A DNA stretch of 64,000 nt, from contig NC_019902.2 in the NCBI RefSeq assembly GCF_000321415.2, positions 3,410,001-3,474,000 on the forward strand, read 5' to 3'. The notes under the pieces were generated by a model. The model had not been told where the DNA came from, ran no database searches, and saw only the letters and a list, made by a program, of their open reading frames with translations. Below, piece after piece: positions 14,633-64,000 of this stretch. Within the stretch, counting starts at the first letter, position 1. Every line of letters begins with the position of its first letter. Made by a program: the position numbers and the translations under genes. This DNA is from Thioalkalivibrio nitratireducens DSM 14787. Lineage in GTDB: Bacteria > Pseudomonadota > Gammaproteobacteria > Ectothiorhodospirales > Ectothiorhodospiraceae.

Positions 14633-14846
14633 TCAGACATGGATGGCATCCCTTTCCACATACGGGCGCAGCTCCGGGCGTAGCGCCTTGTCGGTGACGA
14701 AATCCACTGGACACGTCAACAGGTCCTCCAGGTAGAACTGAACACCGAAATACCGCTTCGAGCTGGCCGGGCCATCAAAGGTCACCAGAATATCGATATC
14801 GCTTCCCTCCTCAGCGGCATCTCTCGCCGTCGAGCCAAACAGGGCA
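14633..14846 (-). pseudogene. MNT nucleotidyltransferase gene cut by a MITE
   Basis: It begins abruptly at ALFGSTARDAAEEGSDIDIL, the active-site loop, and continues in frame through FYLEDLLTCPVDFVTDKALR to the stop at 14633. The preceding codons are replaced exactly at CCTGATTATCACG, the end of the MITE copy at 14847. The gene is therefore disrupted just before its G-S-x-A motif. The missing N-terminal part is not on the far side of the insertion. Confidence 0.7.
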
Positions 14847-15090
14847 CCTGATTATCACGGAAGCTCCGCAAGCTGGACTGGGCCATCTTCGAAACCAGCG
14901 TCATCGCGAGGAGCGAAGCCTTCAGCCGCGAGCGCAGCGTGGCGGACTTAGCCGCGAGCGCAGCGTGGCGGGACGTGGCGATCCAGACGGCGATGGTCCT
15001 CCCCGCGCCGCCTGGATTGCCGCGCTTCGCTCGCAATGACGACCACGCGGAGAGGTGTCGCACTGGCTGAGGAGGTTTCGTGATAATCAG
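14847..15090 (-). mobile_element. MITE-like element copy R2 (in nucleotidyltransferase gene)
   Basis: 244 bases with inverted ends CCTGATTATCACGGAAGC and GGTTTCGTGATAATCAG. Inner arms contain GTCATCGCGAGGAGCGAAGC and CGCTTCGCTCGCAATGACGA. It carries an internal tandem duplication of AGCCGCGAGCGCAGCGTGGCGG (14932-14973 region) and lacks a ~40-base stretch present in R3 and R4. No coding capacity of its own. It is inverted relative to R3/R4 and joined directly to structured element S1. Confidence 0.72.
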
Positions 15091-15213
15091 CCTCCCAACC
15101 CCCGTCCGTACCGGGGCAGGCGTTCGTCGAGAAACGGGACTGCGGCGCAGCACTATCGGCATCCCGGTAACCCACTGATTTCAGTGCAGCGTGGCAGTTT
15201 GTTTCTCAAGAGG
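15091..15213 (-). repeat. Structured element S1 joined to MITE R2
   Basis: Read on the minus strand it matches 23035-23160: both start CCTCTTGAGAAACAAACTGC, share GGGTTACC and a long GTTTCTC/GAACGCCTGCCCCGGTA core, and both end directly at a MITE terminus. Hairpin CACTGA-AA-TCAGTG (15173-15186) corresponds to ACATGA-AA-TCATGT in S2; a second GC hairpin is at 15100-15116. Paired changes point to a conserved RNA or DNA structure. Confidence 0.6.
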
Positions 15214-15285
15214 TCATTTGATGCCTGTCATCGTGCAGAGTACGGCATCGCGTTCCAGGCAGTCTGCATCGGCCCCTTGGGCGTG

Positions 15286-17453: not shown

Positions 17454-18575
17454 TCAGCTGGAAGCTTCATTCAGCCGGCGCAGCCGGTTCAGGCTCCGGG
17501 TCTGGAGCCTCAGGGTCCCGGCCCGATTCTCCCAATTGGCGACGGTCTGAGCAGAAACGCCAAGTTCTGCCGCAAAGGCGGCCCTGGAGAGGCCGAGGCG
17601 CTCGCGCAGGGCACGAATGCCGGCGGGCGTGGCTCCGATCCCGGTCTCGGTCTCGGTCTCGGTCTCGGTTTCGGGCGGTTTCCGCGCGGTTCGCCTGGCA
17701 GCCCGCCGCGTCGGGCCGACGCCGGCCTCCCGAGCGGTTCTGGCCCCGCCGGCAGTTCCGGCCTTGCGAGCAGTTCCAGTGTCCCGAGTCACCGCGGCAT
17801 CGTCTGTGGCCCGTGCATCCGGGACCTTGGGTGCGGGGACCGGCAGGTCGGCCGGTGGATCGTCGGCGTCGATGTCGATGCCGAAGACATCGCTCAGGGC
17901 GGACGCTGGCAGCGTCTGCCGTGAGGACCGTTTTCCCGCACCGGAGAGCGCAGTCGCATCGCCCTGGATCAGTTCGGCCTGATCCACACCGCGCAGGGTG
18001 AACAGAAGCTCGGGAGCGGAGTCCAGCCGGGCGCCGACGCCGTAAAGAATCGCCGCGAGGTGTTTGCAGAGGTCTGCCCAGTCGGGACAGTCGCAGCCCA
18101 GGTGGATCTCCTCGGGACGGGGGAACAGGCCGGTGTCGCGATCGGTCACGACGGCCATGATCTCGCCCGAAATCCTGCCCTGCAGCAACTCGATCAGGGA
18201 ACCGATCCGGCCCTGGCAGCGTTGTTTCAGCGCCTCCCATTGCGCGGCGGGAAGCGGGTCGATGCGGATGCTCTGCCGGTACAGCTCGGAGCCCATCACC
18301 AGCGCCTCGATCGTCCCCGGCCGCATGCCGAGATGCAGCACCGAACCGTTGCGCAGGTAGGTGCGGCCACGGGGCAGGCGGTTCGCGAAATCGCTGTAGG
18401 ATTCGAGGTGTTCGCACCATGCCTGGCCCCAGAAGCTCACGGCGATCCGGCCCCGGGGGGTGGCGGCCGCCACCGGTTCGACGATTTCCCCCCGCTTTTT
18501 CATCGCGGCAACGTGCCGGAGCCCCTTGGCCCTGCGTCGGGCCACGGGTACATAGGGTTTGTAGTTCCAGCTCAT
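17454..18575 (-). CDS. SWIM zinc-finger protein with C-terminal XRE HTH
   Basis: 373 aa. A SWIM zinc finger is seen as CDCPDWADLCKHLAA with Cys161, Cys163, Cys170 and His172. The C-terminus (~320-360) holds an HTH: IRALRERLGLSRAAFAAELG, then VSAQTVANWENRAG. A low-complexity linker contains the run ETETETETET. The start overlaps the SNF2 helicase stop by ATGA, so the two are co-translated; SWIM proteins are frequent partners of bacterial SNF2 ATPases. A DNA-bound helicase cofactor is the likely role. The HTH tail is not usual in this pairing. Confidence 0.85.
   Translation of the reverse strand: MSWNYKPYVPVARRRAKGLRHVAAMKKRGEIVEPVAAATPRGRIAVSFWGQAWCEHLESYSDFANRLPRGRTYLRNGSVLHLGMRPGTIEALVMGSELYRQSIRIDPLPAAQWEALKQRCQGRIGSLIELLQGRISGEIMAVVTDRDTGLFPRPEEIHLGCDCPDWADLCKHLAAILYGVGARLDSAPELLFTLRGVDQAELIQGDATALSGAGKRSSRQTLPASALSDVFGIDIDADDPPADLPVPAPKVPDARATDDAAVTRDTGTARKAGTAGGARTAREAGVGPTRRAARRTARKPPETETETETETGIGATPAGIRALRERLGLSRAAFAAELGVSAQTVANWENRAGTLRLQTRSLNRLRRLNEASS
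17643..17675. repeat. Hexamer microsatellite within SWIM gene
   Basis: Five tandem hexamers (GGTCTC four times, then GGTTTC) encode the ETETETETET linker on the minus strand. The unit length keeps frame, so copy-number changes would alter linker length, not truncate the protein. Confidence 0.7.
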
Positions 18576-21229
18576 AGCGAGGTTTCAGCCTGGTTCAGGT
18601 CGAGGCGGATGAACTCGAGCAGTTCGCGATCATCCATCTCGGTGAGGGCCTTTTCCGCACCATCAGCGAGAATCGCGTCGGCCGTATTTTGCTTCTCGTC
18701 CATCAGCGCATCGATTTTTTCCTCCAGCGTGCCCGAAGTGATGAACTTGTGCACGAGGACGTTACGCCGCTGGCCGATGCGAAAGGCGCGGTCGGTGGCC
18801 TGGTTTTCGATCGCGGGGTTCCACCAGCGGTCGAAGTGGATTACGTGAGACGCCGCGGTCAGGTTCAGCCCGGTGCCGCCGGCTTTCAGGGAGAGCACGA
18901 AGAATGGCGGGCCTTCCTCGCGCTGGAAGCGCTCGACCATTCGGGAGCGTTCCTTCACCGGAGTGCCGCCATGCAACACCAGCCCGTTGCGTCCGAAGAC
19001 ACCCGCGAGGCTGCGCTCCAGCGGCTCGGTCATTTCCCGAAACTGGGTGAACACCAGGGCCTTCTCGCCCCGCGAGGCAATCTCCTCGCAAAGCCCCGCG
19101 AGGCGCTGAAACTTGGCGCTGTCGCTGTTGGCGTAATCGCCCGACCGGGTCAACTGGTCCGGGTGGTTGCAGATCTGCTTGAAGCGCATCAGGTAGGCCA
19201 GCACGAGCCCCCGGCGCTGCATCCCGTCACTGTGTTCGAGTTCTTTCTCCATGCGGCCGGCGGTCTGCCGGTAGAGCCTGGCCTGGACCGCAGTCAGCCC
19301 GCAGTACACCTTCATCTCGGTCTTGTCCGGAAGATCCGCGATGATGCTTCGGTCGGTCTTGAGGCGGCGCAGGATATACGGAGCGATCAGGCGGCGCAGG
19401 GGGCCGAAATGGGCGTTGTGATCCTTGCGCAGGGTCTTGGCGAACTCCCGGAACTGCGAGGCGGTGCCGAGCAGCCCGGGGTTGATGAAGTCGAACAGCG
19501 ACCAGAGATCGCCCAGGTGATTTTCCACCGGGGTTCCGGTAAGGGCCATGCGCGCCTCGGCATCGAGCTTGCGCACCGCCCTGCTCTGGCGGGTGCCGTG
19601 GTTCTTGATCGCCTGCGCCTCGTCGAGGATGACCCAGCTCCACCGGACCCGGGCGGGCCAGTCGAGCCGGGTGAGCATCCCGTAGGTGGTGATGACCAGA
19701 TCGGCGCCGGACAGGGTTTCCGGGGGCGGTGCTGCCAGATCCGCTTCGGCCGTCTCGGAGCGGTGGGCGATGAACAGGCGCAGGGTCGGCGCGAAACGCG
19801 CGGCCTCCTGTTTCCAGTTGCCGATCAGCGAGGCGGGAACGACCAGCAGGGCGGGCGGGCTCTCCGGCAGTTCCGCCTGTTTGCGCAGCAGCGCCGCCAG
19901 CACCTGGACGGTCTTGCCCAGGCCCATGTCGTCGGCCAGGCAGGCTCCGAGACCGGTTCGGGCGCAGAACCAGAGCCATTCCATCCCCCTGGCCTGATAC
20001 GGTCGTAGCGTCGCTCGCAGCCCCGATGGCGGGCCGGACGCCGTCGGGTCGGACAGTTGCCGCAGGGTGTCCGCGAGCCACGCGCCCGGTTGTGCGAAGG
20101 CCCACTCGCGCTGCTCTTCCAGTTCCTCCTTGTCTTTCAGGTCCCCGGGCGCGCCGGCGAGCAGGCGCATGCCCTCGATGAACGACAAACCGCCCTCGGC
20201 CTCGACCGCCTTCCAGTGGTCGAGCGCCTGTTGCAGCCGCTCGCGGTCCACCTCGATCCACTGGCCCCGGAAGAACACCAGTCCGTCGTCGCCCTGCAGC
20301 AGCGTCTGCACCTCCTGCGCACTCAGCGTCTCGCCATCGATCACCACATCGAGCCGGAAGTCGAGCAGGGCATCGAGACCCAGTGCTCCCGCCTTGGCAT
20401 CACCGATGGTCGCCGTCACTGTTGGCCTGCGACCGCGTTTCTGCCACCAGTTCGGCAGGCGGACCAGAAGCCCCGCATCCTCGTACGCGGGAATGCTCTG
20501 CAGGAAGGTATGCGCCTCCTGAGGTGTCCACGCGATCGGGTGGTAGATGTCGCCGCTCTCGATCAGCTCCGCCATGAAGGGGCAGGTCTGCCCAGCGCGG
20601 TGCAGGGGCTGAAGCAGCTTGAGCAGAACGGCCTTGTTGCCCGCCCCGGCGTATTCCTGCAGGGCCTTGCCCAGGGGCAGTTGGCGCAGGCGTCCGGAGG
20701 CGGCGAGTCCCGACGCGTAGGAGGCCATGAAGGCGAAGGGCCGGGTGTCATCGCCCTTGTTTTCGGCGAGGTGCACGGTCACCTTGCCGACCCGCGACCA
20801 CAATGGCGCGTGCTCCTCCAGAAAGCCGGCGACACCGCCCAGCTCGACCACACGGTCCTGGGTCCAGGCCTGCAAACGGCTCCAGACAGCTTCCAGCACC
20901 GCCGCCGAGAGATACTCCGCTCCCCGCATCGGAGGCGCGTTCAGGATCCATTCTGTCAGTTGGGTGGCTCCGGGGGGAGGCACGCTTGGGGCATCGTCCG
21001 ACCCCTCCGGCAGATGGCATATCGCCCGCAGGAATTCCTCGGCGATGCTCCGCCAAAAGAGCAATGTGGCATCCGCAGCCCCGTGTGCGGCCTTCCGGCC
21101 CGCGAGGTGCGCCAGACCCGCCGCTTCGCTCTCGGCAAAAACCGCACACAGAGGGCTCTCCGGATCCCCGCACACGACCCGGCCACCGGGGGTCAATCCG
21201 AGCAGGCCCGTCTCCGTAACGTCCATCAT
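18572..21229 (-). CDS. SNF2-family DEAD/DEAH helicase
   Basis: 885 aa from ATG 21229 (a longer frame to 21628 covers the cupin promoter and is rejected). SNF2 core motifs: LADDMGLGKT (~431-440), ILDEAQAIKN (~535), LTGTPVENHL (~560), and in the second lobe GTGLNLTAAS and NQATDRAFRIGQ. The N-terminal ~400 residues are helical and typical of the bacterial HepA-like SNF2 proteins that pair with SWIM partners. It should translocate on double-stranded DNA, with roles in repair or chromatin-like remodelling suspected, not known. It forms an operon with the SWIM gene. Confidence 0.9.
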   Translation of the reverse strand: MMDVTETGLLGLTPGGRVVCGDPESPLCAVFAESEAAGLAHLAGRKAAHGAADATLLFWRSIAEEFLRAICHLPEGSDDAPSVPPPGATQLTEWILNAPPMRGAEYLSAAVLEAVWSRLQAWTQDRVVELGGVAGFLEEHAPLWSRVGKVTVHLAENKGDDTRPFAFMASYASGLAASGRLRQLPLGKALQEYAGAGNKAVLLKLLQPLHRAGQTCPFMAELIESGDIYHPIAWTPQEAHTFLQSIPAYEDAGLLVRLPNWWQKRGRRPTVTATIGDAKAGALGLDALLDFRLDVVIDGETLSAQEVQTLLQGDDGLVFFRGQWIEVDRERLQQALDHWKAVEAEGGLSFIEGMRLLAGAPGDLKDKEELEEQREWAFAQPGAWLADTLRQLSDPTASGPPSGLRATLRPYQARGMEWLWFCARTGLGACLADDMGLGKTVQVLAALLRKQAELPESPPALLVVPASLIGNWKQEAARFAPTLRLFIAHRSETAEADLAAPPPETLSGADLVITTYGMLTRLDWPARVRWSWVILDEAQAIKNHGTRQSRAVRKLDAEARMALTGTPVENHLGDLWSLFDFINPGLLGTASQFREFAKTLRKDHNAHFGPLRRLIAPYILRRLKTDRSIIADLPDKTEMKVYCGLTAVQARLYRQTAGRMEKELEHSDGMQRRGLVLAYLMRFKQICNHPDQLTRSGDYANSDSAKFQRLAGLCEEIASRGEKALVFTQFREMTEPLERSLAGVFGRNGLVLHGGTPVKERSRMVERFQREEGPPFFVLSLKAGGTGLNLTAASHVIHFDRWWNPAIENQATDRAFRIGQRRNVLVHKFITSGTLEEKIDALMDEKQNTADAILADGAEKALTEMDDRELLEFIRLDLNQAETSL

Positions 21230-21497
21230 GCGCTTCCTGTCAGGAATCAACGGTCCGAAGCGTAACGGCCCTGACGGACCGGCTCCAACCGCAGTGCGCG
21301 CCCGCACGGGGACAGCACACGCGTCGCTCCACTGGCACACTCCGGGATGGCGCACCGTGCAGTGTTGAATCGCAAGACCCCGCCCAGCCGGCGAGGTTAG
21401 ACTGAAATCGAGCAGCGACGATGAACAACCTGGGAGCCGCGAACATGTACCGCGCAACGATACAGACCAAGGCACCAACGGCATCAGGGACCGTCGG
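21230..21497. other. Divergent promoter region between snf2 and cupin
   Basis: 268 bases between divergent genes. An inverted repeat CGGTCCG (21251-21257) / CGGACCG (21275-21281) lies about 25 bases before the helicase start and could be an operator. I see no clear -35/-10 pair. Confidence 0.35.
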
Positions 21498-21866
21498 GTG
21501 ACGCGGACTGTCCAAACCCCGACGGAGTACTGGTTCGAGGAGCGTTGCCACATCACCGAGTGGTGGAATACGCCGGACGACGCCGCGGTGTCGGTGGCGC
21601 GCGCCCGCGTGGAACCCGGCGTGACCACACGGCTTCACCGCCTGAACGGCGTGACCGAGCGCTACGTGATCCTCGAGGGAAAGGGCTGCGCCGAGGTGGC
21701 CGGGGCGGGGCTGCTGAAAGTCGGCGCGGGCGACGTGGTCGTGGTGCCGCCGGGTGCGTCGCAGCGAATCCGCAACGTCGGCACTGGCGATCTGGTCTTT
21801 CTCGCCGTCTGCACCCCGCGGTTCACCCGCGATGCCTACGAGGACATCGATCCGGAACCGATGTGA
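21498..21866 (+). CDS. Cupin-domain protein
   Basis: 122 aa from a GTG start. It has the cupin pattern: ARARVEPGVTTRLHRLNGVT (motif 1, with His and Glu metal ligands partly present), ERYVILEGKG, VGAGDVVVVPPGASQRIRNV (motif 2 start) and FLAVCTPRFT. Single-cupin proteins of this size bind metal and often small ligands; the substrate is unknown. Two partial duplicates (15286 and 16793) show that this gene was copied with the PIN/HTH module. Confidence 0.82.
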   Translation: MTRTVQTPTEYWFEERCHITEWWNTPDDAAVSVARARVEPGVTTRLHRLNGVTERYVILEGKGCAEVAGAGLLKVGAGDVVVVPPGASQRIRNVGTGDLVFLAVCTPRFTRDAYEDIDPEPM

Positions 21867-22515: not shown

Positions 22516-22584
22516 TCGGAGTCCTGTTGGCGGATGGCCTGAGTCGACAGCATTCGAAATAAACGAAACTCGCAATATCCGAAC

Positions 22585-22862
22585 CTGATTATCACGAAAC
22601 CTCCTCAGCCAGTGCGATACCTCTCCGCGTCGGTCGTCATTGCGAGCGAAGCGCGGCACTAATGCGCATAGCGCATTGAACAGCCGCAGGCTGGCCCGAA
22701 GGGCGAGCGCAGCGAGTAATCCAGGCGGCGCGGGGGGACCATCGCCCTCTGGATCGCCACGTCCCGCCACGCTGCGCTCGCGGCTAAAGGCTTCGCTCCT
22801 CGCGATGACGCTGGTTTCGAAGATGGCCCAGTCCAGCTTGCGGAGCTTCCGTGATAATCAGG
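22585..22862 (+). mobile_element. MITE-like element copy R3 with 8-bp target duplication
   Basis: 278 bases, ends CCTGATTATCACGAAA and CGTGATAATCAGG as inverted repeats, flanked on both sides by TATCCGAA (22577-22584 and 22863-22870). The paralogous, uninterrupted sequence at ~16683-16700 has CAATATCCGCAAGGCTGG, so the empty site is present in the same window. No transposase frame. It must have been moved in trans. Confidence 0.82.
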
Positions 22863-23034
22863 TATCCGAAAGGCTGGAACCCACGGAAACAGCAGCTCGA
22901 GGAGAATGTCGATCAGCTCACGTACCAAGAATAACCGTTCCCTGCTGACAAGGATGTGATCACACGGGGCTTGATAGCAAATGACACGCACCATTGGTTG
23001 CTTTCAAGGACACCCTACGGCATCGAAAATCGAT

Positions 23035-23160
23035 CCTCTTGAGAAACAAACTGCTAGGACAACATGAAATCATGTGGGTTACCAGAGTGCCGATGGTGCC
23101 CCACTGCAGTCCCGGTTTCTCCGCGAACGCCTGCCCCGGTATGGACCCGGGGATGGGATG
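23035..23160 (+). repeat. Structured element S2 joined to MITE R4
   Basis: A 126-base homologue of S1. Hairpin ACATGA-AA-TCATGT is at 23062-23075, GC hairpin CCCCGG...CCGGGG at 23134-23152. Compared with S1 the first three base pairs of the first hairpin are all changed yet still paired. No reading frame is evident; a small structured RNA or a recombination signal are the main options. Confidence 0.6.
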
Positions 23161-23441
23161 CTGATTATCACGAAACCTCCGCAGCGAGTGCGACGCCGTT
23201 CTGCGTCGGTCGCTCGTCATTGCGAGCGTAGCGCGGCACTAATGCGCGCAGCGCATTGAACAGCCGAAGACTGGCCCGCAGGGTGAGCGCAGCGAATAAT
23301 CCAGGCGGCGTGGGGACGACTCACGCCGTTTGGATCGCCCGTCCCGCCACGCTGCGCTCGCGGCTAAAGGCTTCGCTCCTCGCGATGACGGTGGTTTCGA
23401 TGACGGCCCGTTCCAATTTGCGGAGCTTCCGGGATAATTAG
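23161..23441 (+). mobile_element. MITE-like element copy R4
   Basis: 281 bases from CTGATTATCACGAAACC to TTCCGGGATAATTAG (right end partly degraded). The inner sequence closely matches R3, including GCACTAATGCGC-AGCGCATTG and CTCGCGGCTAAAGGCTTCGC. It follows S2 directly and lies ~230 bases upstream of the GMC operon. No target duplication is visible. Confidence 0.72.
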
Positions 23442-23670
23442 GAAATCGATTATATAACGATGATCCGGATTTATCGGGAGCCATTTTTTCGCGATGGCAC
23501 CCCATATGCCTTGACTAATAGGAATATGCCCGTCTACACAACAGGCATAGTCGTTTTGGACGTTCTTACCCCGATGCCAATACCAGAATCTCCCTCGGCA
23601 GATTCACAAGCCGCCGAGGGCGACACAGCACCGGGGCACATCACGTACGGACTGCCTGGAGTCGAGGCGC
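23442..23670. other. Leader region of the GMC operon
   Basis: 229 bases between the MITE and the first operon gene. The A/T-rich stretch ATCGATTATATAACGATG (23445-23462) may contain a -10 region. A 75-codon frame at 23460 has no family resemblance and no good ribosome site, and I do not call it. Confidence 0.4.
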
Positions 23671-28406: not shown

Positions 28407-30437
28407 ATGCCCATCCGCTTCGGCCGCGAAGTCACCGGCAACCTGGGCACTGCCGAGTCGCGGGAGTGGCTGGTAACCAACGGCACGGGCGGCTACGCCT
28501 CGGGCACTGTGGCGGGATCGCTCACCCGTTCGTATCACGGCCTGCTGGTCGCGGCCGTGCGCCCCCCCGTGGACCGGCGCCTGATGCTGGTGAAGTTCGA
28601 AGAGACCGTAACCTATCGCGGCGGCACCCATGCTCTGAGCAGCAACCGGTGGGCGAGCGGCGACATCGCGCCGCACGGCTACCGGAACATGCAGTCCTTC
28701 GATCTTGAGGGCTCGGTCCCACGGTGGTGCTTCGCCTGCGCCGATGCCCTGATCGAAAAGCGCGTGTGGATGGAGCACGGAGCCAACACCACCTACGTGG
28801 CGTACACCGTGGTGGCGGCCGTGGAACCGGTACGACTGAGCACCGCGGCAATCGTGGACAACCGGGTGTTTCACAATACCGGGCAGGTCGCCTGGCCGGT
28901 CTCGGTCGAGGTCCTCGGCGATCGCGTGTGCGTGGTTTCGGGCGGACCCGACGCGCTGGCGCTGACGCTTGCAACGAACTCGGGGGCGATATCGGCCGCT
29001 TGCGAGATGTACCACGATTTCGCGCTCCCAGCAGAAGCGCTGCGCGGCCTGCGCGACTGCGACGACCACGTGCACGCCGCCACCTTCGAGGCCAGCATCG
29101 CCCCGGGCGAGACGCTCGTGTTGCTGGCCAGCGCCGAAGAATCGCCCACGCTCGACACTGGGGCCCTGGAGCGGCGCCGGGAACGCGATCGAATGCTACT
29201 GCAACGGTGGCGGAACGCCCGCGCCGGTGGCGCAGGCGAACCTGAACCGTGGGTCGAGCAGCTGGTGCTCGCCGCCGACCAGTTCGTCGTGGACCGGCCC
29301 TCTCCCGGGCGGCCCAACGGCAAGAGCGTGATCGCCGGGTATCACTGGTTCGGTGACTGGGGACGCGACACGATGATCAGCCTGCCGGGCCTGACGCTCG
29401 CGGCCGGACGTCCGGAGATCGCCGCTCCGATCCTCGAGACCTTCGCGCAGTTCGTCAGCGACGGCATGCTCCCCAACCGTTTCCCCGACGCAGGCGAACA
29501 GCCGGAGTACAACACGGTCGACGCGACGCTCTGGTACTTCGAGGCGGTACGTGCCTATCACGAGGCTACCGGCGACGATGCGCTGCTGCGCAGACTGTTG
29601 CCCACGCTGCGGGACATCGTCGACTGGCATGTGAAGGGTACGCGCTACGGCATCCGGGTGGACCCCGCCGACGGCCTGCTGCGCTGGCAGCACGATGGCG
29701 TGCAGCTGACGTGGATGGATGCGAAGGTCGGCGACCATGTGATCACGCCGCGCAGCGGAAAACCCGTTGAAGTCAACGCGCTCTGGTACAACGCCCTGTG
29801 TGCGATGGCCGATTTTGCCGAGCGGCTTGGCGAGGACGGCGCGGCCTACCGGGAGCGGGCCCGTGTGGCACTGGCCGGCTTCGATCGCTTCTGGAATCCC
29901 GATACGGGCCATTGTTTCGATGTACTCGATGGACCCGATGGGCACGAAGCCTGCCTGCGCCCCAATCAGATCCTGGCGGTGGCGCTCCACGCGTCCCCGC
30001 TACCGCCGGAGCGGCAGGGCCTGGTACTCGATGCCTGTGCCCGCACCCTGCTGACTTCGCATGGCCTGCGCTCCCTGGCAGTGTCGGAAACCGCCTACCA
30101 GGGAATCTATCAGGGCGACCAGTTCCATCGAGACGGCGCCTACCATCAGGGCACGGTCTGGGCCTGGCTGATCGGGCCTTTTGTCGATGCACACCTGCGG
30201 GTTCGCAAGGATCCCGCTGCGGCTCGGCGCCTGTTGCAGCCCTTCGGCGACCACCTGGGCAATGCCGGACTGGGCACCATCAGCGAGATTTTCGACGGGG
30301 ACGCCCCGTTCGAGCCCAGAGGTTGCATCGCTCAGGCATGGAGTGTCGGCGAGGTTCTGCGCGCCCTGGTGCGCATCGAGCGCTTCGAGACGGCGCATGA
30401 CCCGGTTTCCCAGCCACCACCGAAGGTCGACGCATGA
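28407..30437 (+). CDS. Glycogen-debranching enzyme, amylo-alpha-1,6-glucosidase (GH133)
   Basis: 676 aa. The N-terminal domain starts GNLGTAESREWLVTNGTGGY and SYHGLLVAAV, typical of archaeal-type debranching enzymes; the C-terminal (alpha/alpha)6 GH133 domain contains YHWFGDWGRDTMISLPGL and DATLWYFEAVRAY. It should remove alpha-1,6 branches of glycogen-like glucans. It starts 3 bases after the propeller gene and overlaps the next start (ATGA at 30434). Confidence 0.9.
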   Translation: MPIRFGREVTGNLGTAESREWLVTNGTGGYASGTVAGSLTRSYHGLLVAAVRPPVDRRLMLVKFEETVTYRGGTHALSSNRWASGDIAPHGYRNMQSFDLEGSVPRWCFACADALIEKRVWMEHGANTTYVAYTVVAAVEPVRLSTAAIVDNRVFHNTGQVAWPVSVEVLGDRVCVVSGGPDALALTLATNSGAISAACEMYHDFALPAEALRGLRDCDDHVHAATFEASIAPGETLVLLASAEESPTLDTGALERRRERDRMLLQRWRNARAGGAGEPEPWVEQLVLAADQFVVDRPSPGRPNGKSVIAGYHWFGDWGRDTMISLPGLTLAAGRPEIAAPILETFAQFVSDGMLPNRFPDAGEQPEYNTVDATLWYFEAVRAYHEATGDDALLRRLLPTLRDIVDWHVKGTRYGIRVDPADGLLRWQHDGVQLTWMDAKVGDHVITPRSGKPVEVNALWYNALCAMADFAERLGEDGAAYRERARVALAGFDRFWNPDTGHCFDVLDGPDGHEACLRPNQILAVALHASPLPPERQGLVLDACARTLLTSHGLRSLAVSETAYQGIYQGDQFHRDGAYHQGTVWAWLIGPFVDAHLRVRKDPAAARRLLQPFGDHLGNAGLGTISEIFDGDAPFEPRGCIAQAWSVGEVLRALVRIERFETAHDPVSQPPPKVDA

Positions 30438-33148
30438 TGATGAAAGGGAAGGAAGCAGACCGTCTCCGCAGCAGCTATGCGGCCCGGCACCCCGAGAGCT
30501 GGCTGCGCTGGGGGCCGTATCTCTCCGAGCGCCAATGGGGCACGGTGCGCGAGGACTACAGCCCCGGTGGCAATGCCTGGGATTATTTCCCGCACGACCA
30601 CGCGCGATCGCGCGCTTATCGCTGGGGCGAGGACGGTCTCGCCGGCATCTCGGACGATCAGCAGCGGCTGTGTTTTGCCCTGGCGCTCTGGAACGGCCGC
30701 GACCTTATCTTGAAGGAACGGCTGTTCGGCCTGACCAACTCCGAGGGCAACCACGGCGAAGACGTCAAGGAATACTATTTCTACCTCGACAATACGCCGA
30801 CCCACAGCTACATGAAGTGGCTGTACAAGTACCCCCAGCAGGCGTTTCCCTACGAATGGCTGGTCGCAGAGAACGCACGACGCAAGCAGACCGACCCGGG
30901 AGCGATGGAGTTCGAGCTCATCGATACCGGGGTTTTCGCCGACGATCGGTACTTCGACGTCGAGGTCGAGTATGCCAAGGGAGCGGTCCAGGACATCCTG
31001 GTCAGGATCCGCGCAACCAATCGCGGCCCTGACCCCGCCACCCTGTACCTGCTGCCGACGTTGTGGTTCCGGAACACCTGGTCGTGGTATCTCGAGTCCA
31101 TGCCGCCAAATCTCGCGGGGAAGAAGCCCGTCGATGGCGCTGGGATCTCCACAGTGCTCGCGACGCCTGCCCCCGGCGACGACAGCCTCGACCCGATGGC
31201 GCTCTATTGCCAGGGGACCGACGATCTCCTGTTCGCAAACAACGAGAGCAATGCCGCGCGGCTATGGGGCATGGCCGACAGTCCTCCCTATCCCAAGGAC
31301 GGCATCAACGATCACATCGTGAACGGCAGTCCCACGGTCGATCCCACCCTGACCGGCACCAAGGCAGCGGCCGTGTACCGCCTGGAGATCGCGCCCGGTG
31401 CCACGCAGGAGATCCGGCTGCGCCTGTGCGATGACCTCGCAATGGCCGACCCGTTCGGTCCCGACTTCGACACCGTGCTGCGGACACGCTCGGCCGAAGC
31501 CGACGAGTTCCACACTGCCCTGCAGCCGCAGGACCTGAGCGAGGAACGCCGCGCCATTCAGCGCCAGGCGTACGCCGGCATGCTGTGGAGCAAGCAGTAC
31601 TACCACTACATCGTCAAGGATTGGCTCAAGGGCGACCCGGCGGGCCCCGCGCCACCCGCGTCGCGCGAACGCAACCGCGAATGGGTCCACTTCCACGCCG
31701 ACCATATCCTGTCGATGCCGGACAAGTGGGAGTATCCCTGGTTCGCTTCCTGGGACCTGTGCTTTCAGGCTGTGGTGTTTGCACGCCTCGACGCCGAGTT
31801 CGCCAAGGAGCAGCTGCTGATCCTTGCACGTGAATTCTTCATGTCCCCGAACGGCGCCATTCCAGCCTACGAGTGGTCGTTCAACGACGTCAATCCGCCG
31901 CTGCACGCCTGGGCGGCGCTGCGCATCTTCCACATCGACAAGCAGCAACGCGGCGGAGACGGCGACACCCGCTTTCTTGCCGACGTCTTCCGCTACTGCC
32001 TGATGTATTTCACCTGGTGGACGAATCGCAAGGATCCTTCCAACAGGAACCTGTTCGAGGGAGGGTTTCTGGGCCTTGACAACATCTCCGTGATCGATCG
32101 AAGCCACTTGGGCGAGCTGGAAGGGCAGCTGGGAAGACCGCTGGATCTCTATCAGTCCGATGGCACCAGCTGGATGGGCATGTTCAGCCTGAACGTGATG
32201 GAGATGGCCTTGATTCTGGCTGAACACGGCGCAACCGAATATGCCCGACTCGCGAGCAAGTTCTTCCAGCATTTCGTTTTCATCGCCGACGCGATGAACA
32301 GCATCGAGCGCCGTTCGCAAGGCCAGGTGTCGGTGTGGGACGACGAGGACGGCTTCTTCTATGATGTCCTGAAGGTCGGCGGAAACCCCGAGCAGTACCA
32401 TACCCTGCGCCTGCGATCGCTGGTGGGGATCGTGGCGCTGTTCCCGGTGGCCGTCCTGGATCTCGATGCGATCGAGCCGACCAGCGCGAAGGGGCTCAAG
32501 GGGCGCATCGAGTGGTTCGTTGCGCAGCATCCCGAACTGCTCGACCAGGCGCTGACGACGCATGACTCGGGTGCCGAGCGCCATCTGCTCACCTTCGTCA
32601 AACCGGAACAGCTCCGGCGCGTGCTCACCCGCGTGTTCGACGAACTCGAGTTCCTCAGCCCTCACGGCATCCGGGGCATCTCGCGGGCCTATCGGGACAA
32701 ACCGTTCAGCATGCAAATCGATGGGGTGACGCTCAGTGAGCGCTATGAACCGGCAGAGTCGTCGGTCGGTCTTTTTGGCGGCAATTCCAACTGGCGCGGA
32801 CCAGTATGGTTCCCGATCAACTTTCTGCTGATCGACGCGCTACGGCGCTATCACGCGTTCTTCGGTGACAGCTTCCAGATCGAGTATCCCGCCCGCTCCG
32901 GCCGCAGATGCGACCTTCGGGAGATCGCCGACGATCTGGCCGAACGCCTGGTCGGAATCTTCGAACGGGGCACCGCTGGAAGACGTCCCGTCCACGGGGG
33001 CAACGAGATCTTCCAGGACGATCCCAACTGGCGCGACCTGTTCCTGTTCTACGAGTACTTTCATGGCGACAACGGGGCCGGCATTGGCGCCTCCCATCAG
33101 ACCGGGTGGACGGGGCTGGCCGCAGAACTCCTCAGCAGCAAGGGCTGA
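30434..33148 (+). CDS. GH63-like glucosidase (MGH1-type catalytic domain)
   Basis: 904 aa. Features of the bacterial glucosidase branch related to GH63 and mannosylglycerate hydrolase: YFPHDHARSRAYRWGEDGLA, LTNSEGNHGEDVKEYYFYLD, then WEYPWFASWDLCFQAVVFA and FLGLDNISVIDRS, and a C-terminal FGGNSNWRGPVWFPINFLL. No signal peptide. It probably releases glucose from alpha-glucosides made available by the debranching enzyme upstream. Tight packing (4-base overlap before, 3 bases after) marks one operon. Confidence 0.87.
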   Translation: MMMKGKEADRLRSSYAARHPESWLRWGPYLSERQWGTVREDYSPGGNAWDYFPHDHARSRAYRWGEDGLAGISDDQQRLCFALALWNGRDLILKERLFGLTNSEGNHGEDVKEYYFYLDNTPTHSYMKWLYKYPQQAFPYEWLVAENARRKQTDPGAMEFELIDTGVFADDRYFDVEVEYAKGAVQDILVRIRATNRGPDPATLYLLPTLWFRNTWSWYLESMPPNLAGKKPVDGAGISTVLATPAPGDDSLDPMALYCQGTDDLLFANNESNAARLWGMADSPPYPKDGINDHIVNGSPTVDPTLTGTKAAAVYRLEIAPGATQEIRLRLCDDLAMADPFGPDFDTVLRTRSAEADEFHTALQPQDLSEERRAIQRQAYAGMLWSKQYYHYIVKDWLKGDPAGPAPPASRERNREWVHFHADHILSMPDKWEYPWFASWDLCFQAVVFARLDAEFAKEQLLILAREFFMSPNGAIPAYEWSFNDVNPPLHAWAALRIFHIDKQQRGGDGDTRFLADVFRYCLMYFTWWTNRKDPSNRNLFEGGFLGLDNISVIDRSHLGELEGQLGRPLDLYQSDGTSWMGMFSLNVMEMALILAEHGATEYARLASKFFQHFVFIADAMNSIERRSQGQVSVWDDEDGFFYDVLKVGGNPEQYHTLRLRSLVGIVALFPVAVLDLDAIEPTSAKGLKGRIEWFVAQHPELLDQALTTHDSGAERHLLTFVKPEQLRRVLTRVFDELEFLSPHGIRGISRAYRDKPFSMQIDGVTLSERYEPAESSVGLFGGNSNWRGPVWFPINFLLIDALRRYHAFFGDSFQIEYPARSGRRCDLREIADDLAERLVGIFERGTAGRRPVHGGNEIFQDDPNWRDLFLFYEYFHGDNGAGIGASHQTGWTGLAAELLSSKG

Positions 33149-59713: not shown

Positions 59714-60238
59714 CGCGAAGGGTCTGTGACATCCGGGGCGGCGATGACCGGTCGCCCCGGTGGTCTCCAACCATTGCGGGCGCATGCAGAACACGATCAT
59801 GAACAAGCGGGTCCCGGCCGTTCTCACCTGCGCGGGCGAGAGTACGGGGCCGGCCATCGACAATTTCGCACACCTGGAGACGCTGGGTCTCATCGAGCAG
59901 GCCGACGACTGGTCACAGATGCGCCATCGGCGCAGGCGTCCTGCGCGGAGCCTTCGAACCACGGGAACCTAGCGCCCGAGGGCGACGAGAGCGCGTTCGA
60001 GCAGCCGCAAGCGTGTGGTCAGGGAAACGCCGATGTTGCGGCGCAATAGAAGCGCCCCTCGCCGTCTATATTTCGGGTAAACTCGGAACAAAACCCACAC
60101 TGTCAGCAGAGCTATTGACGCAGGGACCAGATACTCGACACCACCCGGAAGGGCCTTTCCGGAAAACAGGCCCCCGCGCAGTCTCTGCGGATGCAACCCG
60201 AGCCGCGCTGGAGAGCGCTGCGAAAGGGCGCGAGAGCC
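59714..60238. other. Intergenic region after sqr
   Basis: 525 bases. A GC-rich hairpin at 59733-59760 may end sqr transcription. No further gene with protein character is seen; several short frames are ordinary GC-rich artefacts. Confidence 0.4.
59733..59760 (+). terminator. Hairpin after sqr
   Basis: CCGGGGCG (59733-59740) and CGCCCCGG (59753-59760) form a perfect 8-bp stem with a 12-base loop, 19 bases after the stop. No T-tract follows, so termination may be weak or rho-assisted. Confidence 0.45.
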
Positions 60239-63200
60239 ATGCCTTCTACCAAACCGCAACCGCACTACACGCGCCATTCCGTCGATGACGCCAATGCAGG
60301 CGCGCACGGGTCCTCGGCCCGTGGCTGGCAGAGCAAGCCGGATCGCCGTGGCGACCGCCCGCACTCCGGTCGTACCGGGCTTCGCGGCCTGCTGGCCTGC
60401 CTGCTCCTCTTGGCGGGTATGCTCGGCTCTGCCGCCGGGCAGGAGTCGGCCGATAAGATCTGGCGTGCCGCCACCGACCTGAGCGATCCGCACAACCAGG
60501 CGGTGCTGCTGAAGAACATCAACCATCTGCACACGCTGCGCGGCGTTTCGGAGCAGTACTGGGATCGCGTCCCCGGCATTGGCGATCTTACGCACCGCCA
60601 GTACCAGGAGGCGATGTTCTGGCATCAGCACGAGAATCTGCGGATCGCGCGCAAGGCGGTCGGCGGTCTGGGCGCCTACGAACTCGATCTGCAACGGCCG
60701 GCACCGGATGCCGGCGAGTGGCGCATCGGCTCGGATACCGATTTCCTGGTCCGGCGCAAGGACGGCCGGCCGGTCACGCTCGAGGACATCCAGCGGGTCG
60801 AGGCCGCGTATCGTCAGGCCGTCGCGCTCGAGGTGCGCCGGCGCAGCGGCGGCGCGGTGCGGATGGATCCCCGCGATTTCGACACCGGAACCGATTTCAT
60901 GGTCGCCCACGACGCGACCACCGATACCGAATTCAACCGCATCGCCGAGCACTTCGGCCGCCGCGACGCCGATACCTACAGCCGGGTCGAGGCGGCCCGG
61001 GTCGAGGCGCAGATGCGCACGCCGGGGGAATCGATCGACTACCGCGACGCCGGGATGTACGTCGCCGAGATGGTCGATCAGGCCCAACGCAAGCAGCGGC
61101 AGATCGACCGGCTGCTCCGCGAGCAGGCCGATGCGCCGGCGCGTCAGCGTGCGATCAACGAAGCCCGGATCAAGCAGCTCGAATATGAGCGAGACAAGTA
61201 TCTGCGGCGGATCAATTCGGTCAACCGCCATCTGCACACGCAGGCGCGCACCCAGTTCGGCCGCGGCCTCCGCACGCCGCCGCGCGACATCACGGACATG
61301 CAGAACCTCGCGCAGCAGGCGCGCGAGAACTACGCGCACACCCTCGGGAACGTTCTCCGGGTGATGCCCGAAGGTCCGCAGGCCCGCCAGGCCAATTTCA
61401 TCCTCGCGTTGCAACTGGTCGATCTGCCCGCGGCCCGGCGCAGCGAGGTGCTGTCCCGGCTCGATCAGCGGGTACAACAGAACGTGCTCCAGCAGCTCGA
61501 TGAATTTCGGGCCTGGCGCCGGGCCGAGCGCGAGCAGGTCGCGCGCGAAGACGTCGTCACCCTGCGCAACTTCCTGAACAAGACCGAATTCGGGCAGCAA
61601 TTGCTGCGCGTGTTCGGTACCGAGATCGAGGCGCTGACGACCCGCCCGACCGAGAGTTCTCGCTTTCTGGCCGATGTCTACCGCGACCTCGCCGCCACCG
61701 ACCGGGCGATTCAGAACCGGGCGCAGTCGCTGTCGATGTGGCTGGACCTGATGGTGCAGGTCCGCGACGCGCAATCCGATGCCGAACTGGCCATCGCACT
61801 CGGGCGCACGCTGGCGTCGAAGACCTACTACGGGATGATCGCCAGCCACCTTTACACCGGCCTGATCGAACGCGACGGCACCGCGCTGGCCAGGTCGCTG
61901 ATTCTGATGCTTTCGCCCAAGACCGCGCTGCCGCAGGTGGTGCAGTCGATCGGCGGTTCGGTAATCGACCTGACCACTGCGGTCATGTTCGACCACCAGT
62001 TCATGGTGCTGTACGTGACCGCGCGCTTCGACGACGACGGCAGATTCACGGGCCTGGACGGGTACCGGTCCGGATCGGATGCCGTCTGCCGCTTCTTCGA
62101 CGATGTGCTGCAGCCTGGCGGAGAATACTGGGTCGAAGGGGTGTTCACGCGGGCGCTGGCGTTGTCCGAGGAACGGAACTTCAGCCAGGAGGTGCTGAGC
62201 GGAATCAACGCCTTTGGTACCCGCGCCTTCGTGCGCGCGCTCGAGAGCACCGTGTACGGCGGGACCGCGAGCTTCATGGGGCGGCATCCCGCCGTTCAGC
62301 ATGCGCGCGCCGAGGTTGCCACACTGACCGGCACGATCGACGATTTTGCCGAGGCGCTGGGCGAGCGCGTCCCGGCGCAGGCAGAGCCGGGCTGGGCGGG
62401 GCTGTCGCGCTTCGAGCCCGCGGCCCAGCATGCGATGCGGCCATTGCTCGAGCAGCGGACCGCCGCCTGGAACGACGTCGAGGCGGCGCTGTGCGCGGCA
62501 GTGACGGAATCGCTCGAATCGCGGCATCGCGCCGAGCAGGGGCTCGAGGGCGGCGACGAGGCCGCGCTGGCGTTGCTCGCCGAAGTCGAGCGTCTGTTCC
62601 ACGAACTCGATATCCACGGCGTGGGGATGGCATGGTTGAACCACGAGGGCACGCGCAACGTGATCATGCGCTGGCTCGGGTCCGCCGAGGAGCAGCGGAT
62701 CGAGGCGATGCAGGCGTTGCAGCGCTACCACGATGCCTATTCGGCGGTGCACGAGATCCGCGATACCGTCGAGAGTCTGTATCGCACCGCGACCGGCGGT
62801 GCCGAATCGCTGCTTGCGCGGCCACTGACTGGTTCGCCGCCGCTGACCGCCGATCCGGCGTTTGATCACAGTCTGGCGGTGCGCCTGTTCCAGGAGACGA
62901 TGGACGACCTGGACCGCTACGAAACACAGATGCTGCGGATCAAGCGCGAAGCGCTGAACGACAACCGCGCCCAACTCGATGACCCGTTCGATCGCCGCAT
63001 ACAGACGGCGATCCACGCCGCGACGATCGCGTTGAACGACGCCGCAGCGACGATGCAGGGGGCAACGCATGCGCGGCAAAGGCTGTACCGGGTGCAATGG
63101 TGGGCCGCGCACGATCTGCATACCCGGCATTCGGCCGCTTTCGAGCATACGCGCGCGCAACGCGCGAAGATCGAGGAACTGCTCGACGAATTCCGTGCTC

Positions 63201-64000
63201 ACTATCAGCCAGTCGAACCCGCGCTGGCGATCCTGCCGCCACCGGCGGTGATCGAAGAACGCGCGGCGACCGATACACCCTACGCATTCGGACTCGACGC
63301 AACGGCGATTCCGTCGGAGACGGTGTACGTCTGGTTCGAGGATGGTACGGAAATCGGCCGCGGCGATACGCTGCTGCACATGTTCGAGGAGCCCGGGCCA
63401 CGGACCCTCGAGGTCCGGGCGCAATGGACCCGATCGGACCGGGTGTTGCGCGACGGCAGCGCGACCGCCGAACTGAGTGTCGATATCCGCGCCGATGCCC
63501 TGCTGCCCGAACTGGCGATTCGGCCGCCGCGCGATCTCGGCGCACTCGCCGAGCCGGACCGTGCCTACGAGTTCCACGCATTGCGCAGCAACATTCCGGA
63601 CGACGCGACGCTGAGCTGGCGGATCGACGGCCGGCCGTCGGGTATCGGTGCCGACGTCGAGCTGCGTTTCGGCGATCCCGGCCCGAATATCGTCGAGCTG
63701 TTCGCCGAGTGGGAGGTTCCCGGAAGCTGGACGGGGCAGGAGCAGGTGATCGCACCGGCACTGACCGTCGAAGTCAACGACCCGGGGCCGCTGCTGGCCG
63801 AACCGTGCCGTATCCTGCTTGCCGGCACTTTCGACGAAGCGGTGCCCGAGGTGGGCATCGAGCAGTTGCTGCGCCGGTTCCCGACTCCGGAGGAAGTCGA
63901 GGATTTCGTTGCCGACCGGGCGGCGGTTGCGGCGCGGCATGGCCTGCGCGCGAGCCCCGACGAACCCGATGCGGTCGATGCGGCCACCGGCCTGACGCAG
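60239..64000 (+). CDS. Giant unrecognised protein with N-terminal membrane anchor (3' end outside window)
   Basis: An open frame of 1254 codons from ATG 60239 to the window end (in-frame ATG 60191 also possible; upstream stop at 60116). A hydrophobic stretch LRGLLACLLLLAGMLGSAAG at ~50-69 is a signal or anchor. The next ~950 residues are mainly helical with charged, coiled-coil-like stretches (YVAEMVDQAQRKQRQIDRLL; INEARIKQLEYERDKYLRRI). From ~1020 the sequence becomes beta-rich with Ig/PKD-like pieces (VYVWFEDGTEIGRGD; LSWRIDGRPSGIGADV). I know no matching family. An envelope-located structural, adhesion or toxin-delivery role is possible, not shown. Confidence 0.72.
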   Translation, partial: MPSTKPQPHYTRHSVDDANAGAHGSSARGWQSKPDRRGDRPHSGRTGLRGLLACLLLLAGMLGSAAGQESADKIWRAATDLSDPHNQAVLLKNINHLHTLRGVSEQYWDRVPGIGDLTHRQYQEAMFWHQHENLRIARKAVGGLGAYELDLQRPAPDAGEWRIGSDTDFLVRRKDGRPVTLEDIQRVEAAYRQAVALEVRRRSGGAVRMDPRDFDTGTDFMVAHDATTDTEFNRIAEHFGRRDADTYSRVEAARVEAQMRTPGESIDYRDAGMYVAEMVDQAQRKQRQIDRLLREQADAPARQRAINEARIKQLEYERDKYLRRINSVNRHLHTQARTQFGRGLRTPPRDITDMQNLAQQARENYAHTLGNVLRVMPEGPQARQANFILALQLVDLPAARRSEVLSRLDQRVQQNVLQQLDEFRAWRRAEREQVAREDVVTLRNFLNKTEFGQQLLRVFGTEIEALTTRPTESSRFLADVYRDLAATDRAIQNRAQSLSMWLDLMVQVRDAQSDAELAIALGRTLASKTYYGMIASHLYTGLIERDGTALARSLILMLSPKTALPQVVQSIGGSVIDLTTAVMFDHQFMVLYVTARFDDDGRFTGLDGYRSGSDAVCRFFDDVLQPGGEYWVEGVFTRALALSEERNFSQEVLSGINAFGTRAFVRALESTVYGGTASFMGRHPAVQHARAEVATLTGTIDDFAEALGERVPAQAEPGWAGLSRFEPAAQHAMRPLLEQRTAAWNDVEAALCAAVTESLESRHRAEQGLEGGDEAALALLAEVERLFHELDIHGVGMAWLNHEGTRNVIMRWLGSAEEQRIEAMQALQRYHDAYSAVHEIRDTVESLYRTATGGAESLLARPLTGSPPLTADPAFDHSLAVRLFQETMDDLDRYETQMLRIKREALNDNRAQLDDPFDRRIQTAIHAATIALNDAAATMQGATHARQRLYRVQWWAAHDLHTRHSAAFEHTRAQRAKIEELLDEFRAHYQPVEPALAILPPPAVIEERAATDTPYAFGLDATAIPSETVYVWFEDGTEIGRGDTLLHMFEEPGPRTLEVRAQWTRSDRVLRDGSATAELSVDIRADALLPELAIRPPRDLGALAEPDRAYEFHALRSNIPDDATLSWRIDGRPSGIGADVELRFGDPGPNIVELFAEWEVPGSWTGQEQVIAPALTVEVNDPGPLLAEPCRILLAGTFDEAVPEVGIEQLLRRFPTPEEVEDFVADRAAVAARHGLRASPDEPDAVDAATGLTQ

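Follow-up and report, generated by a model that had tools for sequence, protein, structure and literature searches.

What is the repeat of about 125 bases that adjoins two miniature transposons in Thioalkalivibrio nitratireducens DSM 14787, a structured RNA or a part of the transposon itself? The window analysed here, a stretch of 64,000 nucleotides (positions 3410001-3474000 of a single-contig genome of 4,002,350 bases), contains two copies of this repeat, S1 and S2, on opposite strands, each adjoining a terminus of a MITE (M), as a preliminary description had correctly located them (Table 1). The outer edge that this description regarded as common to both copies is indeed shared, their first 20 bases being identical (CCTCTTGAGAAACAAACTGC). 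S is probably an alternative, extended terminus of the non-autonomous DNA transposon M, and not an RNA, with one transposase supplied in trans.

Table 1. Positions of M, S and associated features (numbers without prefix are window positions; L, locus; G000, own genome)
Feature	Position	Strand	Remarks
Left flank of the M-S1 unit	14839-14846	.	ACAGGGCA; 3/8 bases agree with the right flank, no target duplication
M part of the S1 unit	14847-15090	+	outer terminus CCTGATTATCACGG intact; inner terminus GATAATCAG continues into S1
S1, extended end	15091-15213	-	outer edge CTCAAGAGG at 15205-15213; 82% identity to S2
Right flank of the M-S1 unit	15214-15221		TCATTTGA
Solitary MITE, 279 bp	22584-22862	.	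duplication TATCCGAA at 22576-22583 and 22863-22870
Left target duplication of the S2-M unit (8 bp)	23027-23034	.	AAATCGAT
S2, extended end of the S2-M unit	23035-23160	+	
M part of the S2-M unit	23161-23442	+	inner junction GCTGATTATCACG; outer terminus CCGGGATAATTAGG
Right target duplication of the S2-M unit	23443-23450	.	AAATCGAT; same junction in G011
Unit L001 (S2 unit)			duplication AAATCGAT, exact
Unit L002			duplication AGCCGTTT, exact
Unit L006			duplication TGGTCGGT, exact
Unit L009			duplication TCGCGAGG, exact
Unit L075			duplication TTGCATTT, exact
Unit L023 (G011)			duplication TTGTCACT/TGGTCACT, 7/8
Abundant palindromic repeat	L002:1470-1500, L002:2040-2090, L006:1913-2016		CCACGGAAGAACACGGAAATCACGGAAG...TCCGTGTCTGTCCGTGCTTTCCGTGGC
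IS110-family gene in an S copy	L134:524-1849 = G000:641823-643148		
Second, truncated IS110-family copy	about L181:350-710		same S junction
CRISPR-like array	L181:724-1423 (about G000:2926723-2927422)		

Between the two S copies, the window also encodes a Snf2-type helicase (17454-21628), the best NCBIfam match of which is SCO1167-like and below the curated cut-off, with weaker matches to the ZorD and DISARM helicases, also below their cut-offs. The product of the adjoining gene carries an antitoxin-like HTH close to its C-terminus. Two long open frames, at 59969-63940 (1323 aa) and 30434-33148 (904 aa), had no NCBIfam match.

Base pairing within S

Seventeen S copies were aligned, 14 from the own genome and three from the relative G011; 13 of them reach the inner end and four (L011, L013, L017 and L027) are partial. 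The partial matches L012, L014, L016, L020, L021 and L025 were excluded, as were copies found later. The preliminary description had proposed compensatory changes in a hairpin reading CACTGA-AA-TCAGTG in S1 and ACATGA-AA-TCATGT in S2. These letters are correct, and the two copies, different in sequence there, both form the hairpin, a point in favour of a fold under selection, in a structured small RNA or an RNA regulator. The difference in S2 stems, however, from a one-base T insertion that, among the aligned copies, S2 shares with its sister L002 alone. Just four of the 17 copies, which make up two sister pairs (L001/L002 and L006/L007), have a perfect hairpin, and at least one pair is broken in each of the remaining 13. 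In a second, GC hairpin, said to vary in the same way, two-sided changes are absent from every pair, and one pair is broken in S1 and in its sister L006.

The four helices together pair in 82.5% of cells. Slid controls reach 33-50%, which speaks for the RNA reading, and shuffles reach 81.9% on average. Changes on both sides affect four pairs; 121 of 500 shuffles have as many, and four of six slid controls have more. RNAalifold retains a single stem of 7 bp, GAGAAAC/GTTTCTC, in which no change is compensatory; this stem pairs in 94-97% of cells, far above the slid controls, and also persists in the longer, right-type S (five copies), where one two-sided change in the adjacent stem is reached by 188 of 500 shuffles. 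When four S copies were folded on both strands against shuffled versions, S1 alone was clearly better (2 and 9 of 200 shuffles as good), the other three folding like their shuffles, and the window had no Rfam match at the gathering score. Thus, S carries a conserved inverted repeat, yet selection on RNA structure, as had been proposed, is not supported, covariation staying within the controls throughout, and on the sequence evidence a small RNA now seems very improbable. The GAGAAAC/GTTTCTC pairing may still serve some hairpin function, as DNA or as RNA.

Ends and target duplications of M and of S-bearing units

M alone behaves as a MITE. Its ends read CCTGATTATCACG(G/A)AA(G/C)CTCC at both sides, forming terminal inverted repeats, and the delimited units of the family (193-539 bp) are, by their size, too short to encode a transposase. 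From a selection of M places fetched from the own genome, 35 loci had no S; six were dropped for having fewer than two recognised ends, leaving 29 two-ended copies. An 8-bp duplication (at least 7/8 bases) flanks 25 of the 29, exactly in 21, and none was found at four shifted offsets (1-4). The insertion sites share a palindromic target, CAW-N6-WTG, with C at -10 in 18 of the 25, A at -9 in 20, T at +9 in 15, and G at +10 in 22.

The S-bearing units follow the same rule. The 8-bp duplication lies outside S, within the same CAW-N6-WTG target, in six of the eight delimited units, a result that bears out the earlier suggestion of a transposition signal travelling with the MITE. Seven of these units were delimited in a first set, with six duplications, five of them exact (L001, which is the S2 unit, L002, L006, L009 and L075); in these six the target has C at -10 in five, A at -9 in all, T at +9 in five and G at +10 in four. 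Among 21 further S-bearing loci, a recognisable M right end occurred only in L113 (G013), where 5/8 duplication bases match, the second miss. The other miss is the S1 unit; since both of its ends are intact, a later deletion or exchange beside the unit is likely, and in G011 the initial 25 bases of the flank on its right are found again beside different DNA.

S-M, M-S' and S-M-S' arrangements are each enclosed by the 8-bp duplications. S-M units have two unlike ends, and in L002, a 539-bp S-M-S' unit, S bounds both sides. The right-hand S of L002, L075, L113, L114 and L118 is the longer variant, in which the outer edge and inner blocks are retained. For S-S' units devoid of M, inspection by eye of L011 and L017 demonstrated no duplication.

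The inner junction between S and M reads GCTGATT and free M ends read CCTGATT; in the S2-M unit the changed base lies at 23160, with G in place of the C of free M ends. No duplication was found at this junction in any of seven units, which indicates that M did not insert next to S. In G013 and G027, S is joined to different M cores at the identical junction; this constancy, together with the lack of a junction duplication, identifies S-M as one unit.

Corresponding sites in relatives were also compared. G011, which lacks S2, shares the junction at the right end of the S2 unit. At G011:706500-706900 (L173), the right half of the M of the S2 unit occurs with the same right junction and without S2, and the sequence that flanks the solitary M on its left passes directly into the interior of M near CCGAA(A)GGCTGG, an arrangement that, judged from the sequence, suggests a deletion. 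The counterpart of the solitary MITE site in G011 has a single TATCCGAA and no MITE; it is not a clean empty site, since a deletion starts within a few bases. Searches for empty sites in relatives matched only the ilvD side of L003 and only the tRNA side of L075. The host sequence interrupted by L002 is a further, abundant repeat of palindromic type (CCACGGAAGAACACGGAAATCACGGAAG...TCCGTGTCTGTCCGTGCTTTCCGTGGC), matched many times in G011 and relatives; one G011 copy of it, not necessarily at the orthologous site, is unfilled.

The preferred reading of S as an extended end is as follows. Where a unit bears S, M reads GCTGATTATCACG at one terminus or at both and is lengthened outwards there by S, and the outer edge of S, CCTCTTGAGAAAC, would serve as the new transposon end. 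A single transposase acting in trans would cut both kinds of end. That M and S-M share one enzyme is very probable from the common duplication length and target motif, and the fixed length of the duplication points to a transposase probably of the DDE type. The conserved blocks of S, namely the outer 17 bases, GAGAAAC/GTTTCTC, GAACGCCTGCC and GGGAAGCTGA, are putative protein-binding sites in DNA rather than parts of an RNA.

Origin of S and the search for a transposase

S is a narrowly distributed element. In the own genome, an S2 query gave 17 matches at E<=0.001 and an M query 66 match pieces, and the outer edge occurred at 18 places with at most three mismatches versus one for a reversed control pattern. 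In 58 genomes, the own one included and 30 of them belonging to the genus, S is present in three of the 57 relatives, all of the same genus (four of 58 with the own genome), the matches in G013 and G027 being partial. M termini occur in 16 of the 30 genus genomes, the own included, with at least ten matches in seven. A class-wide scan for M ends (at most two mismatches) yielded, besides the own genome, a single match in one of 368 other genomes. Pattern scans gave four matches in genome contigs of unrelated lineages, about the number expected by chance on our own estimate, and none in viral contigs, plasmids and phages. The wider occurrence of M in the genus suggests that M is possibly the older form and that S was more likely added to M than the reverse.

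A transposase-bearing partner was sought in the own genome (G000) and in G011, G013, G016, G017, G023 and G027. No transposase-bearing element with M or S ends was present among the end positions listed (at most three mismatches, with pairs sought by eye); draft assemblies break at repeats. Ten open frames near unpaired ends matched no transposase family in Pfam, four of them having no match; the unpaired M ends in G000 and G017 adjoin host-like genes. A candidate 2.7-kb end pair in G023 encloses a release-factor-3 gene.

An IS110-family transposase gene (DEDD_Tnp_IS110, Transposase_20) is located within an S copy, directly behind GTGGTTACC, and a truncated second copy has the same S junction. 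S may be a preferred target for this IS, or both copies may descend from one. The truncated IS110 remnant and the S half are immediately followed by a CRISPR-like array with repeats CGGTTCATCCCCGCGCGGGCGGGGAACGC.

How S came to bound M admits other explanations. One is nested insertion, in which S would be a mobile repeat unrelated to M, with one preferred site that M has entered repeatedly. It would fit the constant junction position and the S copies that stand alone, without M or a duplication, in L003, L010 and L019, where the sequence stops at GCTGA, is followed by unrelated DNA, and an intact MITE beside S is thus missing. M inserted in this way should, however, have retained its terminal CC, against the GCTGATT observed, and should be flanked by duplications at the inner junction, where there are none, and not outside S, where there are six; S as a target of M insertion was rejected on these grounds, and nested insertion is accordingly rated improbable. 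A more serious competitor, though still an unlikely one, is that M captured neighbouring DNA by means of a surrogate outer end, in the manner of ISEcp1, and that S is now passive cargo. In its favour, M is present in more genomes than S, and S starts with CCT, as M does; on the other side stand the presence of S on both sides of M in L002 and the near-constancy of its outer 17 bases between species and between the left and right types of S, which suggests a function. A reading of the hairpins as IS200/IS605-like was rejected, since duplications of fixed length exist.

Two further proposals concern what S does. As a foldable spacer, S would extrude hairpins as DNA and so bring the CCTCTTGAG tip to a transposase bound at the inner M terminus; one transposase would then synapse two unlike ends differing by a 125-145-bp insert, and S would re-position the cut site as a modular end that could be added to a transposon. 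We consider this a slight chance. It is very unlikely that S is kept as a donor of a ribosome-binding site (CTCAAGAGG) to genes. ATG codons do follow AAGAG by 8-12 bases in L003, L006, L007, L009 and L019, the genes involved including ilvD (L003) and a cobW-type gene (L019). Yet an NTG at such spacing follows from the WTG of the target motif, which places it at the duplication end (NTG in 38 of 72 ends), and the frames are open in 15 of these 38 cases versus 123 of 303 for control NTG codons taken from the flanks, counted with a slightly different length cut. No special link with genes is thereby shown, and a mobile ribosome-binding site was rejected as the reason for the upkeep of S.

Comparison with known systems

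The open-licence literature contained no account of the M/S family among the matches listed. In the excerpts available of two papers (PMC10969869, PMC2229807), bacterial MITEs such as Correia/NEMIS, RUP and ERIC resemble M/S in being short and non-coding, with terminal inverted repeats, direct target duplications and a strong potential to form DNA hairpins. The M/S family differs from the elements described there by its two unlike termini, combined as M-M, S-M, M-S' and S-M-S'. Correia elements, according to the same partial source, also come in two sizes, which differ by a 50-bp internal sequence and not by their ends (PMC2229807).

The M core has a further, possible counterpart in the CGTC-tagged palindromic repeats. 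The marks of this REP superfamily are, in the sections available of its description, a CGTC tag, a stem of 8-9 bp starting with AT, a CCA tail and an arrangement as inverted dimers, apparently with no dedicated transposase (PMC3733652). The M core has two inverted units, CGTCATTGCGAGCG...GGCAATCCA or a variant, with a CGTC tag, a stem starting with AT that has one mismatch when aligned by eye, and a CCA tail. Units of this kind are present in the M cores at window positions 14847-15090, 22584-22862 and 23161-23442. Unlike the repeats in that portion of the literature (PMC3733652), these units sit inside transposon ends and a target duplication. Termini of this kind surround another palindrome (GTGGGAGGC...GCCTCCCAC) in the M core to which S is joined in G013 and G027; palindrome pairs appear as the cargo of one set of transposon ends.

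Palindromes of the CGTC type, reported without a transposase of their own, are now placed inside units with clear transposon ends. An element presumed to be an RNA becomes instead a natural experiment on transposon ends, with one family, one target rule and two termini that can replace each other. Should one enzyme accept both ends, the family would show how miniature transposons swap their ends and acquire flanking DNA.

In ISEcp1-type elements, one constant and one alternative end can also bound a mobile unit; the alternative end is situated in flanking DNA that varies, and the duplication is of 5 bp. In the M/S family, in contrast, the alternative end is one conserved repeat, S, which occurs on either side of M, and the duplication is of 8 bp.
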